From the IMG/VR virus record IMGVR_UViG_3300032163_000068, positions 1 through 32,606 of that record: a stretch of 32,606 nucleotides of DNA, one strand, 5' to 3'. Under the pieces are notes generated by a model. It searched no databases, was not told the origin of the DNA, and saw only the letters and a list, made by a program, of their open reading frames with translations. Positions 19,882 through 32,060 of the stretch are shown here, piece after piece. The DNA is from a virus. Within the stretch, counting starts at the first letter, position 1; every line of letters starts with the position of its first letter. Position numbers and translations under genes: made by a program.

Positions 19882-19921
19882 AATCTTATGTTATTTTTTG
19901 TTTTATTACGCTTAAATAAAT

Positions 19922-20521
19922 TTAAAACAATTCGTTTTGCTTCGGCTCTTTTTGCCGCAAATCGTTTGCCTCATCTGCCCAGACATTGATATTTATATCG
20001 TGGTTTTCCAATTGGCAACCTTCCTCAATCCAATGCTTCCAGCTACGCTTCAAAATCCTGCCGCGTTTCGTGTGTTTATCCAGCGCATAGTCGGGTATTG
20101 TCAATCGCCAGTTTTTTAAATCGCGCCTCAAGCGAACAACCCCTTGCAAATCATCGGCGGCTCGCGTCTTTTTGCTCTGCGTCAAATATAAAATCGCGTT
20201 AGCAAGGCATAGCCGCGCGCTCCCGTGACGCTCATCTTTTAAAAAGTCATCAAACTCTCGCGCCAGCGTATCAATTAAAATTATCGCCTGCGGATTGGCA
20301 ATGCCGATATCCTCATTGGCGATAACCTTCAATCGCTTCCAGAGATAGCGCTGAAAATTACTCTCAAAAAGTTCCAGCGCCCAGTAAAATGCTTCCTCTG
20401 TTTTGCCACGCCTGATTTCCTTTTGCAAGGCGCTGATGACCTCATCAAGGGGGTGATTATTTTTTGTGATGGCTTCAAAGCGCTTTTTTGGCTCTATAAA
20501 GCCGTTTGTAGCGTTTATCAT
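19922..20521 (-). CDS. Stand-alone RarA/MgsA C-terminal-domain protein
   Basis: The ATG at 20521 gives 199 residues. Residues about 20-130 follow the C-terminal oligomerisation/clamp-loader domain of RarA (MgsA): HPLDEVISALQKEIRRGKTE, then EEAFYWALELFE, then LKVIANEDIGIANPQA and ARLCLANAILYLTQSKKT. An IPDYALDKHTKRG motif lies near 150-165. The AAA+ ATPase domain of RarA is absent. The family acts at stalled forks; a stand-alone copy could steer host RarA or act as an adaptor in phage replication, which is inference. A promoter (20529-20557) ends only seven bases before this ATG. Confidence 0.8.
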   Translation of the reverse strand: MINATNGFIEPKKRFEAITKNNHPLDEVISALQKEIRRGKTEEAFYWALELFESNFQRYLWKRLKVIANEDIGIANPQAIILIDTLAREFDDFLKDERHGSARLCLANAILYLTQSKKTRAADDLQGVVRLRRDLKNWRLTIPDYALDKHTKRGRILKRSWKHWIEEGCQLENHDININVWADEANDLRQKEPKQNELF

Positions 20522-20528
20522 ATCCTCA

Positions 20529-20557
20529 ATTTTATCACCCTTTTGTCTCAATGTCAA
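20529..20557 (-). promoter_or_regulatory. Promoter directly before the RarA-domain gene
   Basis: TTGACA (20557-20552), 17 bases, TAAAAT (20534-20529) with TGA before it (extended -10). Only seven bases (TGAGGAT) separate the -10 from the ATG at 20521, so the transcript would begin at or next to the start codon. A second TTGACA lies 12 bases further upstream. Confidence 0.75.
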
Positions 20558-20564
20558 GCGATTG

Positions 20565-21308
20565 TCAACTGTCGCCGATGTCTAACAACTGCTGTCGCGG
20601 CACGCTAATCTTGATTGCGATTGTGCCTTTTTCCTTTTTAAATCCGATTGCGCCGCGCCACCGCTCTTTTAAAACATTCAAATCAATCCTGTCGCTCGCT
20701 TCTGTCCTGATTGATGCGCTTCCGCCTGCATTGTTAAACCGCTCAATGATAAACGCAAATCTATTGTCAACGAACAAAAATCTTTTTTTCGCCAGCACCT
20801 TCAATGAAAAATCAATGTCCACTCTGGTTTTGCGCTCCGTGTCAAATCTGATATCGCGCCCGATAATCCCGAACGCACTCCCGACCCAAGTGTTTAGCAC
20901 AAACGGCTTCTGCGGCATAAACTTCCTTGTATCCCACGCCTGACTGAACCCATAAGCGTATGCGCCGATGTCCTCTGCTATCTGATGGCAATTATAAATC
21001 ACCTGTTTAATATCATCTGGCTCTGATATTGTGCGACCTCTCATTCCGACATTGCACCACAATCTTGTTGTGTCATCGTCCAGAAAAAAAATATCACCCT
21101 CAACATTATCTAAAATCCATTGGCGTTTTTTTCCTAATCCGACCACATCGCTTTTATGCAAAATGATTTCCTCATCTCTTAAACCCCACGCTTTGTATTC
21201 GTCCGCTTCGTCCTCGCCGATACAAAAATAAAATCCGTCCTCTAAAAGATTGCGCAAATTTCCAACGCTATGCGGACGCTTGCGGCTCGGCACGATTATC
21301 TTTAACAT
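20565..21308 (-). CDS. Putative GT-A glycosyltransferase (TET-associated type)
   Basis: A 247-residue protein starting with IIVPSRKRPHSVGNLRNLL, a nucleotide-sugar-binding first strand and helix. FCIGEDEADEYKAWG follows, then GLGKKRQWILDN (about 57-68) and the acidic DxD-like metal site FFLDDDT (75-80). WVGSAFGIIGRDI and VDIDFSLKVLAKKRFLFVDN continue the GT-A pattern. This resembles phage glycosyltransferases known from base-modification operons (TAGT family). The acceptor would be a modified base, but no TET/JBP-like oxygenase or other base-modifying enzyme is visible. The gene overlaps the ParB-like gene by 41 bases. Sugar and target are unknown. Confidence 0.68.
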   Translation of the reverse strand: MLKIIVPSRKRPHSVGNLRNLLEDGFYFCIGEDEADEYKAWGLRDEEIILHKSDVVGLGKKRQWILDNVEGDIFFLDDDTTRLWCNVGMRGRTISEPDDIKQVIYNCHQIAEDIGAYAYGFSQAWDTRKFMPQKPFVLNTWVGSAFGIIGRDIRFDTERKTRVDIDFSLKVLAKKRFLFVDNRFAFIIERFNNAGGSASIRTEASDRIDLNVLKERWRGAIGFKKEKGTIAIKISVPRQQLLDIGDS

Positions 21309-21936
21309 AATTTTTTTCCACTAATTCTAAAAATCTTTTGCCGTCAACGCCGCGTCCCAACCCGACTTTTTTCCTTTTGCCGAATACAAACGCCTCTTTT
21401 TTTAATTCCAGCAGTTCCGCCGCGCGCATAAAATCAAATTGATTTTTAAAAAAAAGCACTACATAATCGTAATGCTCATACGGCAACAATTCCAACTCTT
21501 TTGGCAATATGTCTGCCTCTGCTAAATCATTTTTGGCTTCGCCTTCTAACCTGCGCCTGATTTCGCCTAACGCCAGTTTATCAAATAAATCTGGCTCTTT
21601 TATCTCAATCCTTGTCAAAATGTCCAGCGCATTTTTATCAAACTCGCCTCTGATGGCAGGATTGTTGATTGCCAGCATCAACTTTTGCTCATCGTCCTCG
21701 CTCAACTCAACTACGCTCACCTCAATTTCGTCCTCATCTTTTAGCTGGTTTTTTAAAATTTTCAATCGCTGATTTCCGTTTAAAACATTGCCCGTTGTCT
21801 GGTTATAAATTATCGGCTCAACATAGCCAAACTCATCAAGGGACGCTCTCAATCCTTCCAGCGCCAAATCTGATATCTGGCGCGGATTTTCCGCGTTGAC
21901 GACCAAATCCTTCATTTTTAATTTAGTTATCTGCAT
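21268..21936 (-). CDS. ParB/Srx-like domain protein
   Basis: A 222-residue protein. The N-terminal 110 residues match the ParB/sulfiredoxin fold: LVVNAENPRQISDLALEGLR, SLDEFGYVEPIIYN, then the GNQRLKIL motif (54-61, in place of GERR) and AINNPAIRGEFD. There is no ParB DNA-binding helix-turn-helix. The C-terminal half contains LPYEHYDYVVLFFKNQFDFM and a GKRKKVGLGRGVDGKRF segment. Proteins with this domain occur in phage base-modification and methylase operons, where the domain may act as an ATP/CTP-using or nuclease unit. Overlap with the glycosyltransferase gene suggests a joint role. Confidence 0.72.
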   Translation of the reverse strand: MQITKLKMKDLVVNAENPRQISDLALEGLRASLDEFGYVEPIIYNQTTGNVLNGNQRLKILKNQLKDEDEIEVSVVELSEDDEQKLMLAINNPAIRGEFDKNALDILTRIEIKEPDLFDKLALGEIRRRLEGEAKNDLAEADILPKELELLPYEHYDYVVLFFKNQFDFMRAAELLELKKEAFVFGKRKKVGLGRGVDGKRFLELVEKNYVKDNRAEPQASA

Positions 21937-22037
21937 ACATCAAATAAAATATGATAAAAAATAAAAGCAACTGTCGCAACTGCCGCTCCGAACAGGAAAA
22001 AAAACAGACATCTTTGAATTTGGGTTTTCTCTGACAT
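21927..22037 (-). CDS. Tiny membrane protein (36 residues)
   Basis: ATG at 22037, TAA at 21927, overlapping the ParB-like gene start by ten bases. The product begins MSEKTQIQR and then spans the membrane with CLFFFLFGAAVATVAFIFYH. Short charged ends flank it. The tRNA-like element abuts the start codon. Such mini-proteins in phages can modulate host membrane proteins. It is too short for a family match. Confidence 0.55.
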   Translation of the reverse strand: MSEKTQIQRCLFFFLFGAAVATVAFIFYHILFDVCR

Positions 22038-22039
22038 TA

Positions 22040-22083
22040 CGCGAGGGCAGGAATTGAACCTGCCTAACCTCGCCTTGCTCGCG
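22040..22083 (-). ncRNA. tRNA-like acceptor/T-arm element
   Basis: On the minus strand the element reads CGCGAG, 13 bases, GGCAGG, TTCAATT, CCTGCC, CTCGCG. GGTTCAATTCC matches the tRNA T-loop/B-box consensus. CGCGAG and CTCGCG can form a six-bp acceptor-like stem, or GCGAG next to it can pair instead. D and anticodon arms are missing, so it is not a working tRNA. It may be a tRNA 3' fragment (as in attP sites), a decayed tRNA, or a structured leader of the tiny membrane protein. Confidence 0.45.
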
Positions 22084-22148
22084 ATGGCGGCGACACTATT
22101 TTTTCGTGGTTTCGTGCCGCCGTTTTAAAATTTTAGTTAGGCGGCTAT

Positions 22149-22691
22149 CTACTCTGGTTTTTTTTCGCCTTCCTCTGCTTCGCCGCCTTCCTCTGGCGCT
22201 TCGCCTTCAACTGGCGCTTCGCCTTCTGGTTTTTTTTCCTCATCAATCATTTTTTTTATTACTTTTATTTTAACTTTTTCCTCTGGGATACCACCGACCT
22301 TTTTGCCTAATAAGACAGACAAATACTCTTTGTCAATCTGGCTATTTTCGTAGTATCCTTCCAGCATCGCTTTTATTTTCTCATTCTGCGGATTTTTTTT
22401 ATTGCGCGCTTTTATCCTCACCTTCAAATACTCAACTGGCGGCTCGCTCACCAAACCCAGCACCCAATTCAGAGTATAACCAATGATGGTAAAAGTAGTC
22501 GTGTCCTGCGCTTTTAGCAACATTGATGCCGAACTGTCCTTTGTCCTATCAATTGTCACCAACCGCAAAACCTTCCTCTGATGTAGTTTTTCTAATTCAC
22601 GCCTAATCTGCAACAGATTTTTTGGCTTCGTCCTTAACCTGCCATATTTATAATCGTAAATTTTGGCTCTTAACTTATCAAAAAAATTCAT
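22149..22691 (-). CDS. Unknown protein with acidic repeat tail
   Basis: A 180-residue protein. The N-terminus is basic (FFDKLRAKIYDYKYGRLRTK), followed by a helical part and a hydrophobic stretch FTIIGYTLNWVLGLVS that might touch a membrane. Residues 150-180 are Glu/Pro/Gly repeats (EGEAPVEGEAPEEGGEAEEG), disordered and acidic. I do not recognise a family. It follows a 47-residue membrane protein with a 14-base gap, so the pair may work at the membrane. Confidence 0.6.
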   Translation of the reverse strand: MNFFDKLRAKIYDYKYGRLRTKPKNLLQIRRELEKLHQRKVLRLVTIDRTKDSSASMLLKAQDTTTFTIIGYTLNWVLGLVSEPPVEYLKVRIKARNKKNPQNEKIKAMLEGYYENSQIDKEYLSVLLGKKVGGIPEEKVKIKVIKKMIDEEKKPEGEAPVEGEAPEEGGEAEEGEKKPE

Positions 22692-22704
22692 TTTGCGATT
22701 AAAT

Positions 22705-22848
22705 TTATTTATCCAGCCATTGCAAAATAACTCCGATGACTAAAATTATTGCGCCTGCAATGACAAACACTTTGCCTAACTCAAATACTGGCGCAACTAA
22801 CATTAACGCTAATCCTGTCCACGATAATTTTGTTCCAACGCTTCTCAT
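22705..22848 (-). CDS. Small two-helix membrane protein (47 residues)
   Basis: ATG at 22848, TAA at 22705. The product begins MRSVGTKLSWTGLALMLVAP and continues FELGKVFVIAGAIILVIGVI, giving two closely spaced hydrophobic helices, and ends LQWLDK. The start has the local A/T type (TAAAAATTATG). It fills an otherwise empty 197-base space between two genes. A holin-like or host-takeover role is possible; the lysis module lies elsewhere. Confidence 0.65.
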   Translation of the reverse strand: MRSVGTKLSWTGLALMLVAPVFELGKVFVIAGAIILVIGVILQWLDK

Positions 22849-22887
22849 AATTTTTAAAAGATGTTTATTTTATTTTTTACCCGACCT

Positions 22888-23235
22888 TTATTTAATGACG
22901 ATATACTCGTCAATTTCCTTATGCTCTGGCAGATACAACGCTTCCAACAACTTCCTTTTAATCCTATAAACATCAGTTTCAATCCCTTTTGTTTCCTCTA
23001 AAGTTATTTTGCCATCGGCATACCACACTTTAAAATCGCAATAGTAGCGGCAAATCTTGATGCCATTGGCTATCAAGTCAATTGGTATCTGCCGTTCCCA
23101 CTTTACAACCTTGCCTGCTTTTTTCAGCATATCCAGATGTTGCGCGTGTCCTGCTTCCAGTTTTGACGCGTAATAATAGCCATCATAAACAGAACTCTTG
23201 TTATGGTATTTGCTTTTTGTCTGAAACCAAGTCAT
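22888..23235 (-). CDS. DUF1064-type nuclease
   Basis: The ATG at 23235 overlaps the previous stop by ATGA and gives 115 residues. The pattern is that of DUF1064: YDGYYYASKLEAGHAQHLDM, then GKVVKWERQIPIDL, CRYYCDFKVWYADG and LEETKGIETDVYRIKRKLL. The set E (in SKLEA), D (CDF) and E-x-K (EETKG) forms a PD-(D/E)XK-like active site. Members are thought to be phage restriction-fold nucleases, perhaps resolving DNA junctions. A longer upstream start is possible but would run over the zinc-ribbon gene. Confidence 0.85.
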   Translation of the reverse strand: MTWFQTKSKYHNKSSVYDGYYYASKLEAGHAQHLDMLKKAGKVVKWERQIPIDLIANGIKICRYYCDFKVWYADGKITLEETKGIETDVYRIKRKLLEALYLPEHKEIDEYIVIK

Positions 23236-23459
23236 TCGCGCGGCGCGTATTCGTGGCTGTCCGTTCCGCCGTGATGGACGCAGTTTGTCCGCCCGACCAC
23301 CATCACTCCCTTGCCTTCCAGTTTGTCGCTTCCGCAGGCAGGACAATGCAAATCGCCTTTTTTCCCGTTAGTCAAAAAATCAAAGCCGCAAGTCGGACAT
23401 TCAAAATCCATCATTTGCAGACAATTCTGCATCTGATAAAATTTTTCCTTGTATGCCAT
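23232..23459 (-). CDS. Zinc-ribbon protein
   Basis: A 75-residue protein with CPTCGFDF and CPACGSDK (about 21-45), a classical two-knuckle zinc ribbon. A C-terminal part CVHHGGTDSH could bind a second metal. It is coupled to the DUF1064 gene by ATGA. It may bind DNA or a host polymerase subunit; no direct sign of either. Confidence 0.7.
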   Translation of the reverse strand: MAYKEKFYQMQNCLQMMDFECPTCGFDFLTNGKKGDLHCPACGSDKLEGKGVMVVGRTNCVHHGGTDSHEYAPRE

Positions 23460-23475
23460 TTTTTTATTGTTAATT

Positions 23476-23697
23476 TTATTCTACCGACCAAATTCTATCC
23501 ATCGCCATTTGAAAAATGGCAAAACTTTTTGCTTTTAATTCCTGACCTTTTTCCTTTGACTTCCTTAAAATAAAATCAATATCTCTTAAATTTTTAATAT
23601 CTTTGTTGTGGATAATCAAATTATCTCTGAACGCACCACCCTGCGCGTCCTCATCGGGATAAAAACTGACAAAGTATGTTGTAAAATTTTTACTCAT
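23476..23697 (-). CDS. Unknown small protein
   Basis: A 73-residue protein (MSKNFTTYFVSFYPDEDAQG at the start). It is followed by a helical Lys-rich part FILRKSKEKGQELKAKSFAI and a short tail. Its start overlaps the preceding stop by ATGA. No motif was recognised. Compact alpha/beta layout suggests a small regulator or adaptor. Confidence 0.6.
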   Translation of the reverse strand: MSKNFTTYFVSFYPDEDAQGGAFRDNLIIHNKDIKNLRDIDFILRKSKEKGQELKAKSFAIFQMAMDRIWSVE

Positions 23698-23948
23698 AAA
23701 GTATCTTTTATTTCCTCTGCTATTTTTTTTGCCTCATTCATTCGTTTTATAAACTGTGCCTTTGTTTCCTTTTTTCTAAATCTATCGGCAAACGGACAAC
23801 CTGCCCAATGCGGCGAATATCCTTTTTCTGTCCGCCCGTCCTCTGTCACAATCGTAGTGATTTTTAAATCAACTGGCATCTGTTTGTTGTTTTTTGTTTT
23901 TATCCAGCCGATTTTTTCACCGCACGCTTGGCAATGTCCTTCTGTCAT
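23694..23948 (-). CDS. Small zinc-binding phage protein
   Basis: From the ATG at 23948 the product has 84 residues. CQACGEKIGWIKTKNNKQMP, then VD, is a pattern common in phage early proteins (C..C....W..T.NGK..PVD). HWAGCPFADRFR gives a further His/Cys pair, followed by a basic helix. The longer start further upstream overlaps the nuclease-like gene and is less likely. Probably nucleic-acid binding, but the function is unknown. Confidence 0.65.
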   Translation of the reverse strand: MTEGHCQACGEKIGWIKTKNNKQMPVDLKITTIVTEDGRTEKGYSPHWAGCPFADRFRKKETKAQFIKRMNEAKKIAEEIKDTL

Positions 23949-23952
23949 AGTT

Positions 23953-24492
23953 TTAATTATTAAAAAGATAATCAGCCGACAGCACTTCCGTAAAATCTCT
24001 GTGTAGCTTATCAAACCTGCAAAAATGCGCTGGCGCTTCACAGTCCGTCCTGATTGGCAGGCGCTTCACTTCCTCGCCAGTTAGCCAACCCTTCAATTGC
24101 GCCTCACCATAATACGGCGCATCAAAAATCAAAACTGCACAATAAAAATCTTTGTATCCGTATTTTAACGCCTGCTCTTGATTATAAAAAAATCCAGATG
24201 ACGCACACTTTTTAGCGTCCCACACTTTACCCCAGATATCACAATCGCCTTTGTCTGGCTGTCCGACATCGTTTGTTAAATCAATGAACGGAATTTTTTG
24301 CTCATTCAGATATTTTTGAAAAATCAACTCGCACAGCCGTCCGTCAAACCATCTGTCTTTTTTATTGAACTTTGTATAATTCCGCTCATCAATTGTTGAC
24401 CCGAACTTGGCGCGGATTTTTTTATCCCACGCGCGCGCCTCTGCTATTATTATATTATCAAACTTGACATACGGCAAGTAAAAATTAGTCAT
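23953..24492 (-). CDS. PD-(D/E)XK-like nuclease
   Basis: A 179-residue protein from the ATG at 24492 (a GTG at 24501 is possible). WFDGRLCELIFQKYL supplies the first helix Glu, GDCDIWGKVWDAKKC holds the Asp and the D-x-K (DAKK), and a helix follows (FFYNQEQALKYGYKDF). This is the order of a restriction-endonuclease fold. It could trim host or phage DNA during recombination or degrade host DNA. No specific family is recognised. Confidence 0.65.
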   Translation of the reverse strand: MTNFYLPYVKFDNIIIAEARAWDKKIRAKFGSTIDERNYTKFNKKDRWFDGRLCELIFQKYLNEQKIPFIDLTNDVGQPDKGDCDIWGKVWDAKKCASSGFFYNQEQALKYGYKDFYCAVLIFDAPYYGEAQLKGWLTGEEVKRLPIRTDCEAPAHFCRFDKLHRDFTEVLSADYLFNN

Positions 24493-24512
24493 ATTGTCCA
24501 CAGTTTATCAAT

Positions 24513-24617
24513 TTAGTTTTTTGGTAGCGGCAACCATATCCGTTCCAGTCCTTCGTGGCGCTTGCTATTAACATACAGATAAAATCCTTTTTGCTTTTTT
24601 CTCTTTTTTTTCCTCAT
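24513..24617 (-). CDS. Very small basic protein (34 residues)
   Basis: ATG at 24617 overlaps the previous TGA (ATGA, 24614-24617); TAA at 24513. The product opens with MRKKKRKKQKGFYLYVNSKR and ends in LPLPKN. It is strongly basic at the N-terminus and might bind nucleic acid. The support is the coupling and its exact fit into a 112-base gap. Confidence 0.5.
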   Translation of the reverse strand: MRKKKRKKQKGFYLYVNSKRHEGLERIWLPLPKN

Positions 24618-24889
24618 CGGAATTTTTTGAAAAATGTTTTGACAAATGTCTTTGTCCGATAATGCACATCAATCTTTGACACGACCCACTCTCGGCATTT
24701 TATCAGTTTTTCTCTGTCATATTTTTTAAACATTCTGGCAATGATTGAAAAATCTTTTTTGAAGTTCCTGAAGTCCTGAAACGCCATCATCGTATCCAGC
24801 GCGTCCTGCTGATGCCGCGTGCTTTGCAAATTTTTTGACGCGGCGATTTTTAATTTCAATTTCTCTAAATACCCACTAAATTCAATCAT
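24614..24889 (-). CDS. Unknown basic helical protein
   Basis: A 91-residue protein, mostly helical and rich in Lys, Phe and Arg (DALDTMMAFQDFRNFKKDFS in the middle, FVKTFFKKF at the end). It is coupled to both neighbours by ATGA overlaps (24886-24889 and 24614-24617). No family recognised. Confidence 0.65.
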   Translation of the reverse strand: MIEFSGYLEKLKLKIAASKNLQSTRHQQDALDTMMAFQDFRNFKKDFSIIARMFKKYDREKLIKCREWVVSKIDVHYRTKTFVKTFFKKFR

Positions 24890-25098
24890 CTTTTAAAATT
24901 CAATTTAGGTAATGGTTTTTTATTTTCTAACGCCTGTTCTAAATAAAATTCTGGCACTCCCACTCCTACCCCTTGATTTAGCATACTTTCTAACAATATG
25001 CCTGTATTTGCATTTCGCCTAAACTTAATTTTTTTCCCTTTTATATTAAGTATTATCCACTTTTCATTTTTTTCCACTTTTAATTCTGTTTTTTTCAT
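24886..25098 (-). CDS. First gene of the middle operon; unknown
   Basis: A 70-residue protein: MKKTELKVEKNEKWIILNIK, beta strands, then a helix (GILLESMLNQ) and a basic end. It is the first gene after the control region, with its ATG behind AAAAATATG and a repeat copy (25111-25147) ending 13 bases upstream. First genes behind attenuators often encode regulators, but nothing in the sequence proves this. Confidence 0.65.
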   Translation of the reverse strand: MKKTELKVEKNEKWIILNIKGKKIKFRRNANTGILLESMLNQGVGVGVPEFYLEQALENKKPLPKLNFKR

Positions 25099-25110
25099 AT
25101 TTTTATTTTT

Positions 25111-25147
25111 TAACGATTTAGGTTAGAGCCGAACACAGATTACCTTC
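25111..25147. repeat. 37-bp direct repeat, copy 1
   Basis: Begins TAACGATTTAGGTT and ends TTACCTTC. It has the same length and the same 14-base left end and 8-base right end as copy 2 (25298-25334), while the central 15 bases differ at 11 positions. On the minus-strand RNA, AGGT can pair with ACCT inside it. Confidence 0.85.
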
Positions 25148-25225
25148 AAAGCCGTCTGAACGACTTTTTATTTAGGAATTGATTGACCGCTTTAAATTGT
25201 CGGCAATTCCTTTTTTGTCCTGTAA

Positions 25226-25248
25226 GTTAGGTTGCTTCACGCCCTAAC
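25226..25248 (-). promoter_or_regulatory. Hairpin related to the leader repeats
   Basis: GTTAGG (25226-25231) pairs with CCTAAC (25243-25248) around an 11-base loop. The left part (TTAGGTTGCTTC) resembles the repeat copies on either side, so it may be a third, diverged copy. Confidence 0.5.
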
Positions 25249-25297
25249 CCCTATTCTCAAAACCGAGACAAAAATTCAATTTATCGGCTTTGACGAT

Positions 25298-25334
25298 TAA
25301 CGATTTAGGTTGTCGCTTCGCACGAGTTACCTTC
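25298..25334. repeat. 37-bp direct repeat, copy 2
   Basis: Begins TAACGATTTAGGTT and ends TTACCTTC, like copy 1. Here TAACGA further right on the transcript can also pair with TCGTTA, giving an outer stem. The central bases differ from copy 1, which points to conserved binding ends with a free middle. Confidence 0.85.
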
Positions 25335-25400
25335 GTTATCCAACATTTAATTTACGGCAGGTAGCTGTTGGTTAGCCACTATATCCTGCTATGGCTTTAT

Positions 25401-25447
25401 AAAACAAAAAGTCGCGTCCGACAATTGCAGTTGTTTCTGGACGCGAC
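25401..25447 (-). terminator. Intrinsic terminator in the middle-operon leader
   Basis: On the minus strand GTCGCGTCC (25447-25439) pairs with GGACGCGAC (25419-25411), followed at once by TTTTTGTTTT (25410-25401). The nine-bp, GC-rich stem plus T-run is a standard rho-independent terminator. It lies about 40 bases downstream of the predicted transcription start. Confidence 0.85.
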
Positions 25448-25486
25448 CCCTTATATCATACTGCAATTGTCATAGTAATTCAATCT
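25401..25486 (-). ncRNA. Attenuated leader RNA / small RNA (about 86 nt)
   Basis: Transcription from the promoter at 25493-25521 would start near 25486 and stop at the terminator T-run. Inside it GACAATTGCAGT (25471-25460) can pair with ACTGCAATTGTC (25431-25420), a perfect 12-bp stem. That stem loops out the first terminator arm and ends directly against the second. The two stems cannot both form fully, so the RNA looks like an antiterminator/terminator switch. If termination always occurs it would be a free small RNA. Confidence 0.6.
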
Positions 25487-25492
25487 GTCTCA

Positions 25493-25521
25493 ATTTTATA
25501 TTTTTCCACAATAGCTGTCAA
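25493..25521 (-). promoter_or_regulatory. Promoter of leader RNA and middle operon
   Basis: TTGACA (25521-25516), 17 bases, TAAAAT (25498-25493). It is the only strong promoter seen upstream of the middle genes, so these genes depend on reading through the terminator at 25401-25447. A DnaA-box-like site (25502-25510) lies in the spacer. Confidence 0.75.
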
Positions 25522-25561
25522 ACACTCAATTCTACACAGTTTGGGGATAATAAGTGGATAA
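25502..25561. other. Cluster of DnaA-box-like sites (origin candidate)
   Basis: TTTTCCACA (25502-25510, plus strand) fits TTWTNCACA. TTATCCCCA (25550-25542) and TTATCCACT (25561-25553), both on the minus strand, differ from TTATCCACA at one base each. Three sites lie in 60 bases next to an AT-rich stretch. As the phage lacks replication initiator genes that I can recognise, use of host DnaA is plausible. Confidence 0.45.
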
Positions 25562-25564
25562 AGT

Positions 25565-25609
25565 AAATCCCCGTTGCGCAATTATGTAAAAATCACACTA
25601 CGGGGATTT
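25565..25609. promoter_or_regulatory. Ten-bp inverted repeat
   Basis: AAATCCCCGT (25565-25574) and ACGGGGATTT (25600-25609) are perfect inverted copies 25 bases apart. The site lies upstream of the promoter and next to the DnaA-like boxes. It could be an operator, a weak terminator of the early operon, or part of the origin. Confidence 0.6.
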
Positions 25610-25630
25610 GACTTTCCCGTCAGCCACCAC

Positions 25631-25698
25631 TCCGAACAGAATTTTGAATTACTGTGGAGCATAAAGGATTTTATTATTGCAAAAATCCAGAACTCGGA
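25631..25698 (-). other. Branched inverted-repeat segment
   Basis: TCCGA/TCGGA (25631-25635, 25694-25698) encloses two further inverted pairs: CAGAATT with AATTACTG (25637-25654) and GGATTTT with AAAATCC (25666-25672, 25682-25688). A three-way-junction RNA downstream of the early operon is possible. On the minus strand the inner stem AAAATCC is followed by TTTATG, which might act as a weak terminator. Confidence 0.35.
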
Positions 25699-25762
25699 CA
25701 GTTTCACCAATCCTGCCGCAAGTTCCAGCCGACAGAGCCGCCATTGCTGGCTCGCTTTTATT

Positions 25763-26164
25763 TTACTCTGCTTTTTGAGTTTTGCGAACGCTGATAAATT
25801 CCGTTTCAACTAATTCCGTGCCAGTCGGGATTTTCCCCTGCCGTGCCAATGCTGGCGCGGCGCTAACCTTAAAAACCTGATTAACTCGCGTCTCAACATA
25901 TTCGCTTGCCATCTTTTGCGACTTCAACCACTTTATCAGTTTAGTTTCGTCAACGATTGATAGCGTCTTACGGCTGGACAACGAAACTGTCGCATCATCT
26001 TTTTTGATGCTCTTGATTTCGCTTTGTTTAAAAGCGGCTAACAGTTCCGCTTGTTTTGCATCGCGCGCCAATGCCAAACTCTGATAGTCCGTATATGCCG
26101 CGTTCGTTTTTTCACGACACGCTAATAAATCGCTGGTTAGTTTTGATATTTCCTCTATTGTCAT
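25763..26164 (-). CDS. Coiled-coil recombination-associated protein (unknown)
   Basis: A 133-residue protein. Residues 1-45 are a helical coiled coil (LTSDLLACREKTNAAYTDYQ). DATVSLSSRKTLSIVDETKL follows, then a helix (IKWLKSQKMASEYVETRVNQ) and a beta tail. This form, helical N-terminus and a short domain with SERKTLxIVDE, is common in phage early operons next to annealing proteins, without a firm role. It is the last early gene before the control region. Confidence 0.6.
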   Translation of the reverse strand: MTIEEISKLTSDLLACREKTNAAYTDYQSLALARDAKQAELLAAFKQSEIKSIKKDDATVSLSSRKTLSIVDETKLIKWLKSQKMASEYVETRVNQVFKVSAAPALARQGKIPTGTELVETEFISVRKTQKAE

Positions 26165-26168
26165 ATTT

Positions 26169-26456
26169 TTAATTTACAGTTATCGCAACTGGCTGTTCTG
26201 CCATTTTTTCTGATTTTTCAGCGCGGTATTTTTCATTCCACTTTTTGCGCCACGCCCAATTTCGGCACTTAATTGAACAGAACTTCATTTTGTATTTCGG
26301 CAATGGCGAACCGCAAACAACACAATTAACTGCGTGTCGTTTTCCATTATTATTGGCAACTTTACCTTCCACTAATCTCTGCACGACAGTATGTTGTTTC
26401 TCATCGCATATCTCAATGGTTGCACCATCGGATTTTATTGTGATGTTTAACTTCAT
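26169..26456 (-). CDS. Zinc-finger protein
   Basis: A 95-residue protein. Residues about 45-75 form a zinc unit CVVCGSPLPKYKMKFCSIKC with a basic helix after it (RNWAWRKKWNEKYRAEK). The spacing resembles the zinc knuckle at the start of HNH and MucR-like proteins in this genome. The N-terminal half is beta-rich. It probably binds nucleic acid. It sits four bases upstream of the coiled-coil gene. Confidence 0.65.
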   Translation of the reverse strand: MKLNITIKSDGATIEICDEKQHTVVQRLVEGKVANNNGKRHAVNCVVCGSPLPKYKMKFCSIKCRNWAWRKKWNEKYRAEKSEKMAEQPVAITVN

Positions 26457-26478
26457 ATTTTTGTTTTGATTTTAATTT

Positions 26479-27273
26479 TTATTGCTCTGTCTCTGGCGGA
26501 ATTGCACTCTCGGCTTCCGCCGCGCCTGCGACCTTTGATTTTATTTTTGTGTCAAATTCCTCAATCACTTCGCTGGCTTTTACCATCGTCAAGTTTTCTA
26601 ACTTGCCGACATATTTTTCTAAATCGTCCTTTGTCCTGCCTAACTGGTTTAACTGGACATATAACTTCCTCAATTGCGCGCCCGATACCCGTTCCTGCTT
26701 AACCTGTGGCTTCAGATTTGGCGCTGTGGCGACCTTCTGCGGCTTGGCTGGTGTTTTATCTGCCTGCGCCATATCCTCTAAATCCTGCGTGAAAAAATCA
26801 GACAGTCCGCCCGTCCTCAAAACCGCATCAATCTGCGCTCGCTTCTCGGCGATTTTCAGCGCATTATTGACACTCCAATTTACCTTCTCTGCAACCTGCG
26901 CCGCGCCTCTACCTTCGCCGATAATCTCGCTGGTTTTTCTGTTCAGCAATTCGCACTTCAACACAAAATATCCTTTTTCAAAATCCTGATGCTCATAACT
27001 GAAAACTGGACGCAAATTAAAAAGAGAGCAAAATTTTTCCGACCCTGCTTTAAACAATGTCGGCTTGCTCTCATAAATTGCGCCCGTGCGCGACTTCATC
27101 TCAATTGTGCCATAATCAATCCCTTCAACCATCTGGTCTTTGATGTATGCCGCAACAATCTGGCGTTTCTCTTTTTCTAATTTTACAAACTCCTCTAAAT
27201 CTTTTGGCGTTTCAGTCCAACCCTTGACAACCTCATCTGTTTTTGCCATACTCAAATTAGGTTTTGTTTTCAT
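26479..27273 (-). CDS. Putative single-strand annealing / recombination protein
   Basis: A 264-residue protein. The core has IKDQMVEGIDYGTIEMKSRT, ESKPTLFKAGSEKFCSLFNL, then a strand segment ending in EIIGEGRGAAQVAEK, and NNALKIAEKRAQIDAVLRTG. After a Pro/Lys linker, a C-terminal helical unit (SGAQLRKLYVQLNQLGRTKD) resembles the small tail domain seen on many phage annealing and single-strand-binding proteins. I infer a role in recombination-based replication or repair. The Rad52/Erf-type core is not proven. Confidence 0.6.
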   Translation of the reverse strand: MKTKPNLSMAKTDEVVKGWTETPKDLEEFVKLEKEKRQIVAAYIKDQMVEGIDYGTIEMKSRTGAIYESKPTLFKAGSEKFCSLFNLRPVFSYEHQDFEKGYFVLKCELLNRKTSEIIGEGRGAAQVAEKVNWSVNNALKIAEKRAQIDAVLRTGGLSDFFTQDLEDMAQADKTPAKPQKVATAPNLKPQVKQERVSGAQLRKLYVQLNQLGRTKDDLEKYVGKLENLTMVKASEVIEEFDTKIKSKVAGAAEAESAIPPETEQ

Positions 27274-27280
27274 ATTTTTG

Positions 27281-27317
27281 CACGAAACCGCTTGTCTCTC
27301 TGGCAGGCGGTTTTGTG
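27281..27317. promoter_or_regulatory. Eleven-bp hairpin before the annealing-protein gene
   Basis: CACGAAACCGC (27281-27291) pairs with GCGGTTTTGTG (27307-27317) with one G-U pair. On the plus strand TTTTT follows, as in a terminator, but no plus-strand gene exists. On the minus strand the stem ends eight bases before the ATG at 27273 and could hinder ribosome access. Confidence 0.6.
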
Positions 27318-27327
27318 TTTTTAATAA

Positions 27328-27561
27328 TTATTTACTGCGCTTTAAATTAAGCACGATATTCCTGTGCTTGTTTGGGACGACCTTCACTTTGCCCTGCCGC
27401 TCCAGTTCCAGCACTAATTGCCTTGCCCACTCGCGGCAGATGTCAAACCTCTGTGCTATCTCAAACAATGTCGGCATATAGCCGTTGTCCTCAAAATAGC
27501 CCAACAGGTAACTCCAAACATCTAAAGCGCTCTTTTGTCTTGGTAACATTTGCTTTATCAT
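27328..27561 (-). CDS. LexA-type winged-helix DNA-binding protein A
   Basis: A 77-residue protein that consists only of a winged helix: SALDVWSYLLGYFEDNGYMP, TLFEIAQRFDICREWARQLV (recognition helix) and LERQGKVKVVPNKHRNIVLN (wing). It corresponds to the LexA N-terminal domain without a peptidase. It follows a second LexA-like gene and has its own apparent promoter (27569-27598), from which the transcript would start right at the ATG. Likely a transcription regulator of the early region. Confidence 0.75.
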   Translation of the reverse strand: MIKQMLPRQKSALDVWSYLLGYFEDNGYMPTLFEIAQRFDICREWARQLVLELERQGKVKVVPNKHRNIVLNLKRSK

Positions 27562-27568
27562 ATTTTTA

Positions 27569-27598
27569 ATTTTATCCTTTTTGTCTATGGTTTGTCAA
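27569..27598 (-). promoter_or_regulatory. Promoter directly before winged-helix gene A
   Basis: TTGACA (27598-27593), 18 bases, TAAAAT (27574-27569). The ATG at 27561 lies seven bases after the -10, as at 20521, so the message would be leaderless or nearly so. It overlaps the end of the upstream gene. Confidence 0.6.
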
Positions 27599-27811
27599 GT
27601 CCAGAACGACCATTGCTCGCGACTTTTGCGGATATCTAAAAATGTAATCCTTGATGACCAGATGCTTCACTCTGTCGTGTGCCGAACTGGACGAATTTAA
27701 TTTAAAGCGCCTGCAAATATCATCTAAACTCGGCGCATATCCGTTCCGCACAATGAATTTTTTGATGAACTCCAGCGTCTCAAATTGTTTTTTGGTTAGC
27801 GGTTTTTGCAT
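27572..27811 (-). CDS. LexA-type winged-helix DNA-binding protein B
   Basis: A 79-residue protein. LTKKQFETLEFIKKFIVRNG, YAPSLDDICRRFKLNSSSSA, then HDRVKHLVIKDYIFRYPQKS match the LexA DNA-binding domain (LT..Q.E.L.FI..FI...GYAPS...I). There is no cleavage site or Ser-Lys peptidase. Without self-cleavage it would not respond to DNA damage directly. It is a distant paralogue of the gene at 27328 and overlaps the MucR-like gene by 16 bases. Confidence 0.82.
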   Translation of the reverse strand: MQKPLTKKQFETLEFIKKFIVRNGYAPSLDDICRRFKLNSSSSAHDRVKHLVIKDYIFRYPQKSRAMVVLDLTNHRQKG

Positions 27812-28287
27812 AAATTTTTTAATCGCTCAATTGTCTGCAACGACCTTTTATAATGTCCTGCCTTTTTATCGCCGACCACATACCAGAACCTTCTGCCTTT
27901 TTTCAGATTATTGACTGTCTTATTTTCAAAAACCAATCTGGCTTTTAATTCAACCAAATCTTTTGGCAATTGTCCGCGTTTGACATCAAAACCAAACTCC
28001 TCGCGGTATGCGCGCGCGCTCGCGTAGCCGTGCCGTTGAACAGCGTGGCTTCCTATCTGGCGATACCAACGACCACAATGCTGGCATTGTATCCGCTTAT
28101 CTGGCGGCAACTTCTCAATCCGCGCCGTCCAGCGTTCGTTTTGCCAACGATTTTGGTAGCCGCGCCAGCGTTTGTTGATTGCCTTCTGTCTGCATCGGCG
28201 CGAACAATAGCGTCTAAATCTATGCGACAACTTCACGCCGCAAACCTCGCAGTATTTCCTGAATGGAACGCTAAAACATTTACCCAT
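27796..28287 (-). CDS. MucR/Ros-like zinc-finger protein
   Basis: A 163-residue basic protein. An N-terminal knuckle CEVCGVKLSHRFRRYCSRRC (about 13-32) is followed by a basic linker, then a Ros/MucR-like unit: CQHCGRWYRQIGSHAVQRHG (about 68-87) and SARAYREEFGFDVKRGQLP. The Cys2-His2 zinc unit and the following Y...F(G) segment are as in MucR. It probably binds AT-rich DNA and may control early genes. The two zinc units in one protein are unusual for MucR. Confidence 0.75.
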   Translation of the reverse strand: MGKCFSVPFRKYCEVCGVKLSHRFRRYCSRRCRQKAINKRWRGYQNRWQNERWTARIEKLPPDKRIQCQHCGRWYRQIGSHAVQRHGYASARAYREEFGFDVKRGQLPKDLVELKARLVFENKTVNNLKKGRRFWYVVGDKKAGHYKRSLQTIERLKNLCKNR

Positions 28288-28292
28288 AATTT

Positions 28293-28526
28293 TTAGTCCT
28301 GATAAATTTCCTTTGCCGCATAGACATACAGCATCTCTGGATTATCTGGAATATGACCACTTTCGGGGTCGCTGTATCCCTGTGGATTTTGCCGTATCAT
28401 CTTAACCTCTGAACGAAAATCTTTTTTGTCCGTGAGCATTGCATACCAAAAATTATTACTACCGACTATCAAATAGACAGTCGGATTTTTGGCTCTATGC
28501 CACTTTTTTCGTTTTGATTTGACCAT
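28293..28526 (-). CDS. Unknown small protein
   Basis: A 77-residue protein with a basic start (VKSKRKKWHRAKN), a beta part (TVYLIVGSNNFWYAMLTD) and an acidic loop (YSDPESGHIPDNPEM). It overlaps the end of the previous gene by 32 bases in another frame. No family recognised. Confidence 0.55.
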   Translation of the reverse strand: MVKSKRKKWHRAKNPTVYLIVGSNNFWYAMLTDKKDFRSEVKMIRQNPQGYSDPESGHIPDNPEMLYVYAAKEIYQD

Positions 28527-28686
28527 AAATTTTTATCCTGTTTATTCTGGCAGGAACGACCACCGCCCAATTGCAGTTGTCGCAACAACGACCATCGTTG
28601 ATTGGCTCGGCGTTATTGCCAAACCCTTCGTATTCTGCCTGACAGATTGAACAGATATTTTGTTTTTTTATTTTTTTGTTTGCCAT
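28495..28686 (-). CDS. Small Cys-rich phage protein
   Basis: A 63-residue protein with CSICQAEYEGFGNNAEPIND, then GRCCDNCNWAVVVPARIN. The pattern C..C...Y.G.GNNA.P.NDG.CC..CN..VV.AR is widespread in phages and bacteria but has no known role. The four Cys probably bind zinc. It starts 25 bases after a possible 28-codon frame. Confidence 0.75.
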   Translation of the reverse strand: MANKKIKKQNICSICQAEYEGFGNNAEPINDGRCCDNCNWAVVVPARINRIKIYGQIKTKKVA

Positions 28687-28711
28687 ATAATTTTTACTTT
28701 ATACGATTTAT

Positions 28712-28798
28712 TTACATCGTCCTCAAATTCGCACTTTGCATCACCGACTTTACTGACGGCATCTGCAAACCGCGTTGCTCTTGTAATTCGTGTCATAT
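28712..28798 (-). CDS. Possible micro-protein (28 residues)
   Basis: ATG at 28798, TAA at 28712. It begins MTRITRATRFADAVSKVGD. Its start has exactly the local form (ACAAAAATATG) and lies downstream of a hairpin, as for other early genes. There is no coupling or family support, so this call is weak. Confidence 0.35.
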
Positions 28799-28826
28799 TT
28801 TTGTTTTAATTTTAATTATTGCGACC

Positions 28827-28864
28827 TTGCCGTTGCCGCCGTAAAGCGGCAATAGGACAGGCAA
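28827..28864 (-). promoter_or_regulatory. TTGCCGC hairpin 1
   Basis: TTGCCGC (28833-28839) pairs with GCGGCAA (28846-28852); an outer TTGCC/GGCAA pair extends it. It lies between two small early genes, about 30 bases before the next possible start. No T-run follows. Similar elements occur at 29115-29134 and, less perfectly, at 29436-29448. Confidence 0.65.
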
Positions 28865-28867
28865 CAA

Positions 28868-29083
28868 TTAGCGTCTTTGATATTTGCTGGTAGCTTTTAA
28901 ATACTCCTCATCAGATATCGGCTCAATGCAATCTGTCTCAATGAACGGACAGCCGAATGTATGCGCCGTCACATTTTCCCAGCTTGCGCCGTCATAATGC
29001 GCCCAGTCAACAACAATTATATCGCCAATATCACCGACAAAACACTTTTTGATTAACCTGTATTGTTTGTTATCTTGATACAT
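28868..29083 (-). CDS. Unknown early protein
   Basis: From ATG 29083 (CAAAAAAATATG) the product has 71 residues. MYQDNKQYRLIKKCFVGDIG, then IIVVDWAHYDGASWENVTAH and a C-terminal GCPFIETDCIEPISDEEYLK. The single small beta barrel form (LIKKCFVGDIGDI.VV.W) resembles SH3-like phage proteins. A longer upstream start would include a hairpin and is unlikely. Function unknown. Confidence 0.6.
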   Translation of the reverse strand: MYQDNKQYRLIKKCFVGDIGDIIVVDWAHYDGASWENVTAHTFGCPFIETDCIEPISDEEYLKATSKYQRR

Positions 29084-29114
29084 ATTTTTTTGTTTAATTA
29101 TTATAAACTCACCA

Positions 29115-29134
29115 TTGCCGCCACGCGGCGGCAA
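29115..29134 (-). promoter_or_regulatory. TTGCCGC hairpin 2
   Basis: TTGCCGCC (29115-29122) pairs with GGCGGCAA (29127-29134) around ACGC. It lies between two early genes, 32 bases before the ATG at 29083. Same arms as hairpin 1; no T-run. Confidence 0.7.
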
Positions 29135-29150
29135 GGCGTGAACTTACAAT

Positions 29151-29423
29151 TTAGTCAATGCAAGTCATATACGCGTCCTTGTCCTGCTCCAGAATAAAAT
29201 ATCTAACTCTGTCAAAATCGGAAACTCTTACTTTCGTGTCACCCGTTTCGTATTTATCATTCGTGCTATAAACCCAATTGATTAAATACGCTATCAGTTC
29301 CGTTGTGACACAACTGCCACCGCCGAAGCGGTTATTAACCTCAACATTTTTTTCGCTGTTGTCCAGCGCGGCATAATTTATGCCAACTCTGTTGAAGGTA
29401 TTTATCACAGATTGTTTTATCAT
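29151..29423 (-). CDS. Unknown early protein
   Basis: A 90-residue protein. VINTFNRVGINYAALDNSEK, then VNNRFGGGSCVTTELIAYLI, and a C-terminal SDFDRVRYFILEQDKDAYMT. The pattern suggests a small alpha/beta protein. It starts 7 bases after the SWIM mini-protein gene. No family recognised. Confidence 0.6.
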   Translation of the reverse strand: MIKQSVINTFNRVGINYAALDNSEKNVEVNNRFGGGSCVTTELIAYLINWVYSTNDKYETGDTKVRVSDFDRVRYFILEQDKDAYMTCID

Positions 29424-29429
29424 ATTTTT

Positions 29430-29585
29430 TTATCTCATCGCGGCAACGCGCGTGGCGTGCCAGCAATGGTTATTGTATAAAAACCCTTTGCAAGTGCAGA
29501 ATACTTTGCCGTTTTTAAACCTTTCTGTGGTATAGTTTCTGCGCTTGTCGGAACGGCTTTTATATTTGATGGTTTTTTTAGTCAT
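29430..29585 (-). CDS. SWIM-type zinc mini-protein (51 residues)
   Basis: ATG at 29585, TAA at 29430. The product is basic at the start (TKKTIKYKSRSDKRRNYTTE). It then carries VFCTCKGFLYNNHCWHATRV, a CxC...CxH arrangement as in SWIM zinc fingers, which bind DNA or proteins. The whole protein is essentially one zinc finger plus a basic arm. It has its own promoter (29644-29672), and a 12-bp inverted repeat sits between promoter and start. Confidence 0.75.
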   Translation of the reverse strand: MTKKTIKYKSRSDKRRNYTTERFKNGKVFCTCKGFLYNNHCWHATRVAAMR

Positions 29586-29586
29586 A

Positions 29587-29643
29587 AGATATAGGATAGG
29601 CGCGACTTTTTTATGCTTATATTAGCCGTCTTATCCTATATCT
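29587..29643. promoter_or_regulatory. Operator-like 12-bp inverted repeat
   Basis: AGATATAGGATA (29587-29598) and TATCCTATATCT (29632-29643) are perfect inverted copies 33 bases apart. One arm touches the -10 hexamer and start point, the other touches the start codon of the SWIM gene. As the transcript would start inside the first arm, a DNA operator for a dimeric or looping repressor is more likely than an RNA hairpin. Confidence 0.65.
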
Positions 29644-29672
29644 ATGCTATCACAGTTTTACTCCTTTGTCAA
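29644..29672 (-). promoter_or_regulatory. Second early promoter
   Basis: TTGACA (29672-29667), 17 bases, TAGCAT (29649-29644), preceded by TGTGA as in the promoter at 30190-30218. The two promoters share TTGACAAAGG and CTGTGATA. Confidence 0.75.
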
Positions 29673-29687
29673 GGGTTTGTCCAGTCC

Positions 29688-29951
29688 TTAACTCATTGAA
29701 GCAATGCGAACCCTTATCGGCTTTTGGCACTTATCGCAATGAGTTTCAATCTCAAACCGCAAAATTTGACCTTTTACGATACCTAAAACATTTGAGGTGA
29801 TAAGGTAGCGCGTCCAAGTTTGGCAGTCATCGTGATATAAAAACAGGTTTATTCCTGCGCGCGGCTCTATGGTATCGGCGCTCAAGCCGTGTCCGTTATC
29901 CTCAACGACATTAACCTTGCCATCGGACATAATTGTCCTTTGTATATTCAT
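29688..29951 (-). CDS. Unknown early protein with Cys pair
   Basis: An 87-residue protein. GKVNVVEDNGHGLSADTIEP, then LFLYHDDCQTWTRYLITSNV, and a C-terminal IETHCDKCQKPIRVRI with CDKC. A single CxxC with a neighbouring His suggests zinc binding. It is followed by the second early promoter. No family recognised. Confidence 0.6.
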   Translation of the reverse strand: MNIQRTIMSDGKVNVVEDNGHGLSADTIEPRAGINLFLYHDDCQTWTRYLITSNVLGIVKGQILRFEIETHCDKCQKPIRVRIASMS

Positions 29952-29962
29952 TTTTTTGGCAC

Positions 29963-30136
29963 TTATAGCCGAACTACATTGATGCGCAGTTGTTTGACTT
30001 TTTTCCTGCCAACTTCCTTGCGGAACTGTTTGTGCGCGCGATTAACAGCCACTCCTAAATTGGTGGCGTGTTCGCGATACTCAAACTCCTTCGGGTATGG
30101 CAGGTCTGCGCTGATGCGGACAATAAAGTGCATCAT
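29963..30136 (-). CDS. First early gene: small basic protein (57 residues)
   Basis: ATG at 30136 (or the next ATG at 30133), TAA at 29963. It begins MMHFIVRISADLPYPKEFEY, then a helix REHATNLGVAVNRAHKQFRK and a basic strand KQLRINVVRL. The beta-alpha-beta form and helix resemble small phage DNA- or RNA-binding proteins. It is the first gene behind the strongest early promoter, with a 47-base leader. Confidence 0.7.
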   Translation of the reverse strand: MMHFIVRISADLPYPKEFEYREHATNLGVAVNRAHKQFRKEVGRKKVKQLRINVVRL

Positions 30137-30189
30137 AATTTTGTTATTTTTATATTTTTTTAACGACCTTTTATGGTGTCTCTATTTCT

Positions 30190-30218
30190 ATTGTATCACA
30201 GTCCAGAACCTTTGTCAA
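30190..30218 (-). promoter_or_regulatory. Main early promoter
   Basis: TTGACA (30218-30213), 17 bases, TACAAT (30195-30190), with TGTGA before the -10. A second TTGACA lies 11 bases upstream, so CTTGTCAAGTCC occurs twice in a row. It follows the terminator of the late operon and starts the early genes. Confidence 0.85.
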
Positions 30219-30251
30219 GTCCTTGTCAAGTCCGACTATTACAGAAACAAC

Positions 30252-30281
30252 AAAAAAATGCGATTTTCACCGCATCTTTTT
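30252..30281. terminator. Terminator between late and early operons
   Basis: AAAAAAATGCG (30252-30262) pairs with CGCATCTTTTT (30271-30281). On the minus strand ATGCG/CGCAT is followed by TTTTTTTG, a standard intrinsic terminator. The stem is nearly symmetric, so it would also work on the other strand. Confidence 0.85.
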
Positions 30282-30300
30282 GTCCTATCTGTTTTTAAAA

Positions 30301-30489
30301 CTAAACCTTCCTTGCTATGCCAAACTTCGCAACGGCGGAACGCAATGTCGCTAACCCACCAAATCCCAGTATGCCAAAAATGATTTCTAACACGGCTTTA
30401 TCAATCCAACCCAGCAAATAAATCGCCATTGCCACGCCCCCCAGAATGGCAAGGATATAAGTTTTTTTACCTGATAAATACTCAAACAT
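30301..30489 (-). CDS. Holin-like small membrane protein
   Basis: From ATG 30489 the product has 62 residues. MFEYLSGKKTYILAILGGVA, then a helix AIYLLGWIDKAVLEIIFGIL and a loop FGGLATLRSAVAKFG. Two hydrophobic segments with a short charged turn suit a class II-type holin, and the gene follows the peptidase. The upstream start at 30594 lies inside the peptidase gene. It is the last gene before the terminator. Confidence 0.7.
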   Translation of the reverse strand: MFEYLSGKKTYILAILGGVAMAIYLLGWIDKAVLEIIFGILGFGGLATLRSAVAKFGIARKV

Positions 30490-30529
30490 AATTTTTAATT
30501 TTAACTGATTAGTTTGAGGATTTGATATT

Positions 30530-31477
30530 TTATAATCCGAACAAATCGCGCAATCTGTCTTTTTGCACCAACGGATAAATTCTGTATCCGTCAAAATATG
30601 TATCCGCTACTTCTCGCGGAACTCCTTGTAATCCCTGCATCTGCAACGCCGCTAACTCCACTTCATCGCCAATGTTAAACGCAATTTTTAAACTCGGATA
30701 AGTCAAAAATTGCTCTTTGCCTAAAATTACATAGTCCATAATTGTTAGTCGCCAATCATCGGGTAAATCCTCAAAGGACATACCTGCCTGAATTGGATAA
30801 CTGTTAGATAATTTACGATACCTGTCACCCCACCAATTTAAAACGCCGATATAATTCTCTGTCCAGTCCCAGAGCAAAACGGAATGATACCAGTCATTCC
30901 TGCCCGTAAATTGGACAATCTGGTCATAAGGTTTGACCCAATCCGTATTGTTGCCGCCAATGGCAATTGGTATCGGCTGTCTGAAACAAGCGGATTTTAA
31001 ATTATCAAGTCCCGTTGAAACAAACGAATAATTTTTGATGCGGTATATCTGCGCATTGTCTTTGCCTTCTGGCGTGACAGCCGAAACATCTAAAAATTTA
31101 TTAGCACCGATAGTCCAGTCATTCGGACAATAACTATCCTCTGGTATGCCATAGTTTCGTTGCCAGTCCGCACTCTCGCGGTATGACCTGCCGCCAGTTC
31201 CGCCTGCTGTATTGCCGTAGCCATAGCGGAACGACAATTTCTCATCTCTGTTTTCCTGCCGTGAAAACCACTCTTGCAAGGCGGCAATCGTTGCCCAGAC
31301 ACAGCAATTGATGCTGTCCTGAAACGGAATATAATCTGGCACAGGACGCGAAAAAGATGGCGGCGGCGCTTCTGCCACAATACCAATTAACCTATCCCAA
31401 CTCGCGTCTCTGATGTCTGGCAAATCTGGCTTCCAGCCAGTCGCCATCGGCTTAAAAACTGTTTTTCGTATAGGCAT
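30530..31477 (-). CDS. Papain-like cysteine peptidase
   Basis: A 315-residue protein. The active-site order of papain is present: oxyanion Gln53 and nucleophile Cys59 in PFQDSINCCVWATIAALQEW, His198 in NDWYHSVLLWDW, and Asn214-Trp-Trp-Gly in VLNWWGDRY. There is no signal peptide or membrane segment and no recognised cell-wall-binding domain. In the lysis module it takes the place where an endolysin is expected, followed by a holin-like gene. It may cut a peptide cross-bridge or S-layer protein, or it may be a virion-associated peptidase. A structured leader RNA precedes it. Confidence 0.85.
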   Translation of the reverse strand: MPIRKTVFKPMATGWKPDLPDIRDASWDRLIGIVAEAPPPSFSRPVPDYIPFQDSINCCVWATIAALQEWFSRQENRDEKLSFRYGYGNTAGGTGGRSYRESADWQRNYGIPEDSYCPNDWTIGANKFLDVSAVTPEGKDNAQIYRIKNYSFVSTGLDNLKSACFRQPIPIAIGGNNTDWVKPYDQIVQFTGRNDWYHSVLLWDWTENYIGVLNWWGDRYRKLSNSYPIQAGMSFEDLPDDWRLTIMDYVILGKEQFLTYPSLKIAFNIGDEVELAALQMQGLQGVPREVADTYFDGYRIYPLVQKDRLRDLFGL

Positions 31478-31500
31478 AATTTTAAAATTAAATTATCTGC

Positions 31501-31596
31501 TCTTTGCGCCTATCAAGTCGGCACGACCAATCCCGACCTAACAGGCGTTTGAGGTATCAAATCCTCTAAAGCGCCAACCCTCAAGAGGCGCAAGGA
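31501..31596 (-). ncRNA. Structured leader RNA (three-way junction)
   Basis: A GC-rich segment in an AT-rich genome. The closing stem TCTTTGCGCCT (31501-31511) / AGGCGCAAGGA (31586-31596) has 11 pairs with one G-U. Inside are a bulged stem (GGCG..TTT.GAGG with CCTCAAACGCC) and a stem AGGTCGG/CCGACTT with an 11-base loop. CTTGAGG can also pair with CCTCAA, an alternative fold. It ends 23 bases before the peptidase ATG and may control it. A 31-codon frame coupled to the holin-like gene (31513-31608) overlaps it. Confidence 0.6.
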
Positions 31597-32050: not shown

Positions 32051-32060
32051 AGATTTTAAT

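Follow-up and report, generated by a model that had tools for sequence, protein, structure and literature searches.

Two crossing stems behind a phage promoter: a candidate conditional terminator within 120 bases

We sought to determine what use a phage might make of a promoter that is followed, within 120 bases, by an intrinsic terminator and by a second stem that crosses it. The element lies on the − strand of a virus record of 32,606 bases (the window, by which we mean the whole stretch of DNA analysed), in which almost all genes are on the − strand. Since the window contains genes for a terminase (18084-19451), a portal protein (16323-17921), an HK97-type capsid protein (10430-11554) and a prohead protease (11558-12646), it belongs to a tailed phage, unclassified at present. 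Within it, the element sits in the widest intergenic gap, where 664 nt separate the gene at 25763-26164 from that at 24886-25098.

The promoter, TTGACA-N17-TAAAAT at 25521-25493, matches the consensus at 11 of 12 positions in a promoter scan, and would start transcription at about 25486. Four arms follow on the same strand: arm a, GACAATTGCAGT (25471-25460), which is the 5′ arm of stem S1; 12 bases further on, arm b, GTCGCGTCC (25447-25439), which is the 5′ arm of the terminator stem S2; then, past the spacer AGAAACA, arm a′, ACTGCAATTGTC (25431-25420), the 3′ arm of S1; and, directly abutting it, arm b′, GGACGCGAC (25419-25411), the 3′ arm of S2. The T-run TTTTTGTTTT (25410-25401) comes next, and 3′ ends are expected at about 25403. 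S1 therefore has 12 bp and a loop of 28 bases, while S2 has 9 bp and a loop of 19 bases, the 3′ part of which is a′, and the distance from the −10 box to the terminator is 45 bases. The two stems have no base in common, yet they cross: the loop of each encloses an arm of the other. The arms were read from the sequence, and an independent inverted-repeat search recovered S1 as a perfect 12-bp repeat (25420-25431/25460-25471). The preliminary description had reported this promoter, a nine-bp terminator with a T-run some 40 bases past it, and a perfect 12-bp stem that surrounds the first terminator arm and touches the second without a spacer, and all three features were confirmed, the stem with every coordinate exact. 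A simple terminator scan had missed the element because it admitted loops of 3-8 bases only.

This arrangement can be read in two ways. The promoter and the intrinsic terminator enclose a predicted RNA of about 84 nt (25486-25403) free of genes, which is the layout of a small-RNA gene; the same terminator (25447-25411) also lies in a leader, between the promoter at 25521 and the gene that begins at 25098. No alternative stem takes bases from a terminator arm, as is usual in attenuators, S1 being built from loop and upstream bases only, and we therefore do not file the element as a classical attenuator.

A search of both strands detected the crossing arrangement a single time in the window, and never in 60 shuffled versions of that sequence with dinucleotides preserved. 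The window also holds three strong terminators (stem of at least 8 bp) versus 0.38 per shuffle, and two perfect inverted repeats of at least 12 bp with a loop of at most 40 bases versus 0.13 expected per shuffle. When the terminator was kept and its loop and upstream bases were shuffled, a repeat of at least 12 bp abutting b′ arose with p about 5e-6, which represents one event in 200,000 trials and gives an order of magnitude only; p comes near 1e-4 once some 30 hairpins are allowed for. The absence of the arrangement from the shuffles, together with the former value, indicates that the crossing stems are not due to chance, and the feature is real, non-random and compact. In six other phages (~286 kb), 50 terminator-like sites yielded a single weak crossing case, with a 6-bp stem and a 69-base loop, and eleven distant relatives (~100 kb) yielded none, so that, in all, some 390 kb of DNA from other phages contained nothing comparable. 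A plain terminator, serving solely to end transcription and carrying its loop repeat incidentally, would not be alone in the window, where other large-loop hairpins with T-rich tails are found (25609-25565 and 20325-20281), but the probability of the abutting repeat, even after correction for the number of hairpins, makes such an explanation quite unlikely.

As bare stems, S1 and S2 are nearly equal in energy (−15.9 and −16.0 kcal/mol, respectively). Once every other pair is also permitted, the energies become −19.7 kcal/mol for the S1 state and −26.6 kcal/mol for the S2 state, since S2 is lengthened where the T-run pairs with bases that precede b; at equilibrium the terminator is thus favoured by about 7 kcal/mol. 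In the growing transcript, S1 gives the most stable fold once a′ is complete (end at 25419) and stays ahead up to the end at 25410, to be superseded by S2 at 25407; these folds ignore the RNA held inside the polymerase, and hence give the order of events and not their efficiency. The 92-nt region 25395-25486 as a whole folds with z = −3.9. Folding the two states of the short RNA, the check that had been proposed for this locus, gave two distinct states with S1 forming first. The accompanying claim that both stems cannot form fully at once stood in part: the stems do cross and a′ and b′ are joined without a linker, but the stems share no bases, and their exclusion would be steric. Judging from geometry and not from calculation, a full 12-bp S1 and a full S2 are unlikely to coexist in a normal H-type pseudoknot because of the zero linker between a′ and b′, while a partial pseudoknot, in which the lower half of S1 opens, 6-8 bp are kept and the freed bases of a′ form the bridge, is possible. 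If the two states are exclusive, the element would be a conditional terminator; if they coexist, its product would be a small RNA whose 3′ end is knotted.

We tentatively regard a conditional terminator as the most likely use of the element, ahead of a plain small-RNA gene: the cassette would produce an RNA of about 84 nt, the early stem would pre-empt its own terminator, and a fraction of transcripts would read through into the next operon. On the moving polymerase, a would pair with a′ before b′ is made; S1 would then occupy the terminator loop beside b′ and enclose b in its own loop, hindering or delaying the pairing of b with b′. Should S1 last past the T-run, transcription would continue into the leader of 300 nt and the genes from 25098 on, whereas if a ribosome, a protein, another RNA or a pause were to block or open S1, S2 would form and the short RNA would be released; the output would be the proportion of short RNA relative to read-through mRNA. 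Several observations favour a conditional terminator. A stem opposing the terminator would make little sense in a constitutive small-RNA gene, and the near-equality of the bare stems points the same way, in combination with the order of their formation, as do the rarity of the crossing stems in shuffles and other phage DNA and the precedents set by IsrK isoforms (PMC4825925) and the HMP-PP riboswitch (PMC6478431). Counting against it are the lack of bases common to the two stems, which makes a partial pseudoknot possible, the advantage of S2 at equilibrium, and the 300 non-coding nt between the terminator and the next gene. In addition, the searches for an effector (leader peptide, target in trans within the phage, pairing with the leader) came up empty, and the promoter and terminator are sequence predictions. 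The proposal of an attenuation switch is consequently upheld as regards the promoter, the two competing, non-random stems, their near-equal energies and the precedence of a:a′, whereas attenuation of downstream genes is a prediction. A stricter form, which we hold to be unlikely, is a terminator timed by folding order, in which the early stem would capture the loop, the choice would lie between knot and no knot, and read-through would be the default; a factor keeping a single-stranded would then turn the operon off and release the small RNA.

The distribution of promoters also favours a conditional terminator. Five 11/12 promoter matches are present in 18000-32606, every one of them on the − strand, and no − strand promoter of at least 9/12 was found between 25455 and the gene at 25098, the next ones being TTGCCG-17-TATAAT at 24477-24449 (10/12) and the promoter at 20557 (11/12). 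The first downstream genes would therefore rely on the promoter at 25521 or on read-through from farther upstream, as had been proposed. Earlier reading of the locus had seen the middle genes served by no second strong promoter and had made the expression of roughly 4.5 kb depend on the switch; the former holds at 11/12 as far as 20557 but is qualified by the 10/12 match, and 4.5 kb is an upper bound. Predicted beneficiaries of read-through are the gene at 24886-25098, which codes for 70 aa and has no assigned function, and the next gene, 24614-24889, both on the − strand. The leader ahead of them (25400-25099, 302 nt) is non-coding and moderately structured (z = −2.95). It harbours two 38-nt repeats, 74% alike, at 25110-25147 and 25297-25334 on the − strand, each ending in AACCTAAATCGTTAA; read as codons they give EGNSCEATT* and EGNLCSALT*, with three silent differences, and they may represent either short coding repeats or hairpins.

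Could the element be an ordinary phage small-RNA gene, with efficient, unconditional termination, in which arm a, left free once S2 has formed, pairs in part with the terminator loop to give a stabilising H-type pseudoknot, and the RNA has a host or phage target in trans? The gene-free segment of about 84 nt between promoter and terminator, the S2 state as the equilibrium fold, the lack of bases common to S1 and S2 and the location in the largest intergenic gap would all suit such a gene. However, its free 5′ tail has no phage target above chance, the best one being equalled with 27 of 100 shuffled tails, there is no match in Rfam, and a 12-bp S1 abutting b′ exceeds the length that a loop pseudoknot could use, so that we consider this explanation possible, though on balance doubtful. 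An 11-bp complement of b′ and the T-run (AAAAAGTCGCG) is present at 29611-29601, and was set aside as coincidence, as related words also occur within genes.

Alternatively, the 12-bp arms could be protein-binding sites in DNA, an operator or a roadblock made of two inverted copies whose centres are 40 bp apart, near +15 and +55, with the RNA stem as a by-product. Each arm is near-palindromic around a CAATTG core, and the phage encodes, on the − strand, two adjoining small proteins (27328-27561 and 27572-27811), each scarcely extending beyond a LexA-type DNA-binding domain and devoid of the protease part. Nevertheless, no other copy with fewer than two mismatches exists in the window and two-mismatch copies are at chance level, the arms do not overlap the promoter, and exact abutment to b′ would be left unexplained; all this gives DNA sites only a slim chance of being the answer. 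Nor does the element look like a replication origin, a candidate that we rejected, as TTATCCACA-like words are scattered (18073, 23615, 25502) and form no cluster there.

A five-codon ORF, ATG ACA ATT GCA GTA TGA (MTIAV, 25473-25456), coincides with arm a, and a ribosome translating it would open S1 and thereby favour termination. Its start context, however, would rank in the bottom quarter of real genes, is equalled by 29% of all ATGs, and its codons have no amino-acid theme, making leader-peptide attenuation highly improbable. The versions of attenuation that invoke a leader peptide or a target in trans thus found no support, owing to the weak start context and to phage targets no better than those of shuffled tails.

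Comparison with known systems shows that, by layout, the closest described locus among those we compared is IsrK of prophage Gifsy-1, in which transcripts from a phage promoter either stop at an intrinsic terminator, as a short RNA, or continue as a read-through mRNA isoform, the short RNA activating translation of the read-through RNA in trans (PMC4825925). The phage promoter, the terminator-ended short RNA, the partial read-through, predicted in our case, and a downstream mRNA leader that is initially non-coding are all shared; however, the short RNA of our element pairs with its downstream leader no better than shuffles do (duplex energy of −36.7 versus a shuffled mean of −36.7), and an Rfam search revealed no sequence relation to IsrK. 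By structure, the closest analogue in this comparison is the HMP-PP (thiS) riboswitch, in which the aptamer is built into the terminator, together with an alternative stem and perhaps a pseudoknot (PMC6478431). Here too, the terminator hairpin and its loop build an alternative stem and possibly a pseudoknot, the states compete, and the whole is very compact; in contrast, thiS disrupts the terminator stem, binds a metabolite and adjoins thiamin genes (PMC6478431), while our element takes no terminator base and has phage genes of unassigned function as neighbours.

Other systems are less similar. In pT181-type attenuators, the switch is an antisense RNA from the opposite strand (PMC3753616); they resemble the element in that an upstream antiterminator sequence decides whether the leader terminator forms, as predicted here, but the promoter scan saw no + strand promoter facing the element nearby. 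The processed P4 CI RNA pairs with two target segments, seqA and seqC (as described in PMC4825925). It is likewise a phage leader in which complementary segments decide on premature termination, a decision predicted here, but our element has one complementary pair, with no further copies in the window. The HK022 put RNA consists of two stem-loops that bind RNA polymerase and suppress distant terminators (PMC9378689), and is comparable as a structured RNA of ~70 nt directly past a phage promoter that affects termination, as predicted for our element, which differs in carrying its own terminator and in having stems that cross.

Searches with Rfam covariance models, which included C4, put, HMP-PP and other leader, riboswitch and antisense families, gave no hit in the window that reached the gathering threshold, and the matches at the element itself were at chance level. 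Viral contigs contained no homologues of the genes at 25763-26164, 26479-27273, 23953-24501 and 24886-25098, and no exact S1 or S2 patterns, and a DNA similarity search of phages and plasmids was equally negative. Terminase relatives (L002-L012) were recovered; the upstream region is present in none of those checked, nor is the element, and all evidence on it comes from a single sequence. Terminase and capsid profile searches of genome contigs, aimed at the host, matched no prophage.

If our preferred reading is correct, a terminator would be gated by sequestration of its loop, with no sequence common to both states, within 120 bases. Such a device would be simpler than the attenuators compared above and easily rebuilt as a reporter, and elements of this type would escape searches that look for shared arms or that restrict terminator loops to 3-8 bases.

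The same region has other features of interest. On the − strand, 25560-25765 forms a long imperfect rod-like hairpin, followed by a terminator-like 10-bp hairpin with a 25-base loop; it folds at −80.4 kcal/mol (z = −6.5), with 0 of 200 shuffles as good, has no match in Rfam, and lies near a weak promoter (9/12) at 25788-25760. Judging by its fold, it is possibly a second structured non-coding RNA of ~190 nt adjoining the cassette. Throughout the window, gene starts have an A/T-rich context with the consensus AAAAAAAATAAAATT ahead of the ATG, and a GGAG, GAGG or AGGA word within 20 bases of the start is found in only 10 of 53 genes, which suggests that translation in the host is probably not dependent on Shine-Dalgarno sites. 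TTGACA- or TGGACA-like copies are located ~11 bp upstream of the −35 box of the − strand promoters at 30218, 29672, 27598 (where the copy is less clear) and 20557, and are absent from those at 25521 and 18062; they look like a common operator. Finally, the second perfect 12-bp inverted repeat with a loop of at most 40 bases, AGATATAGGATA / TATCCTATATCT within 29587-29672 on the − strand, which has no third counterpart in the window, is situated directly 3′ of a TTGACA promoter, and its 3′ arm adjoins the ATG of the ORF at 29430-29585, so that it may either mask the start of this ORF or act as an operator.
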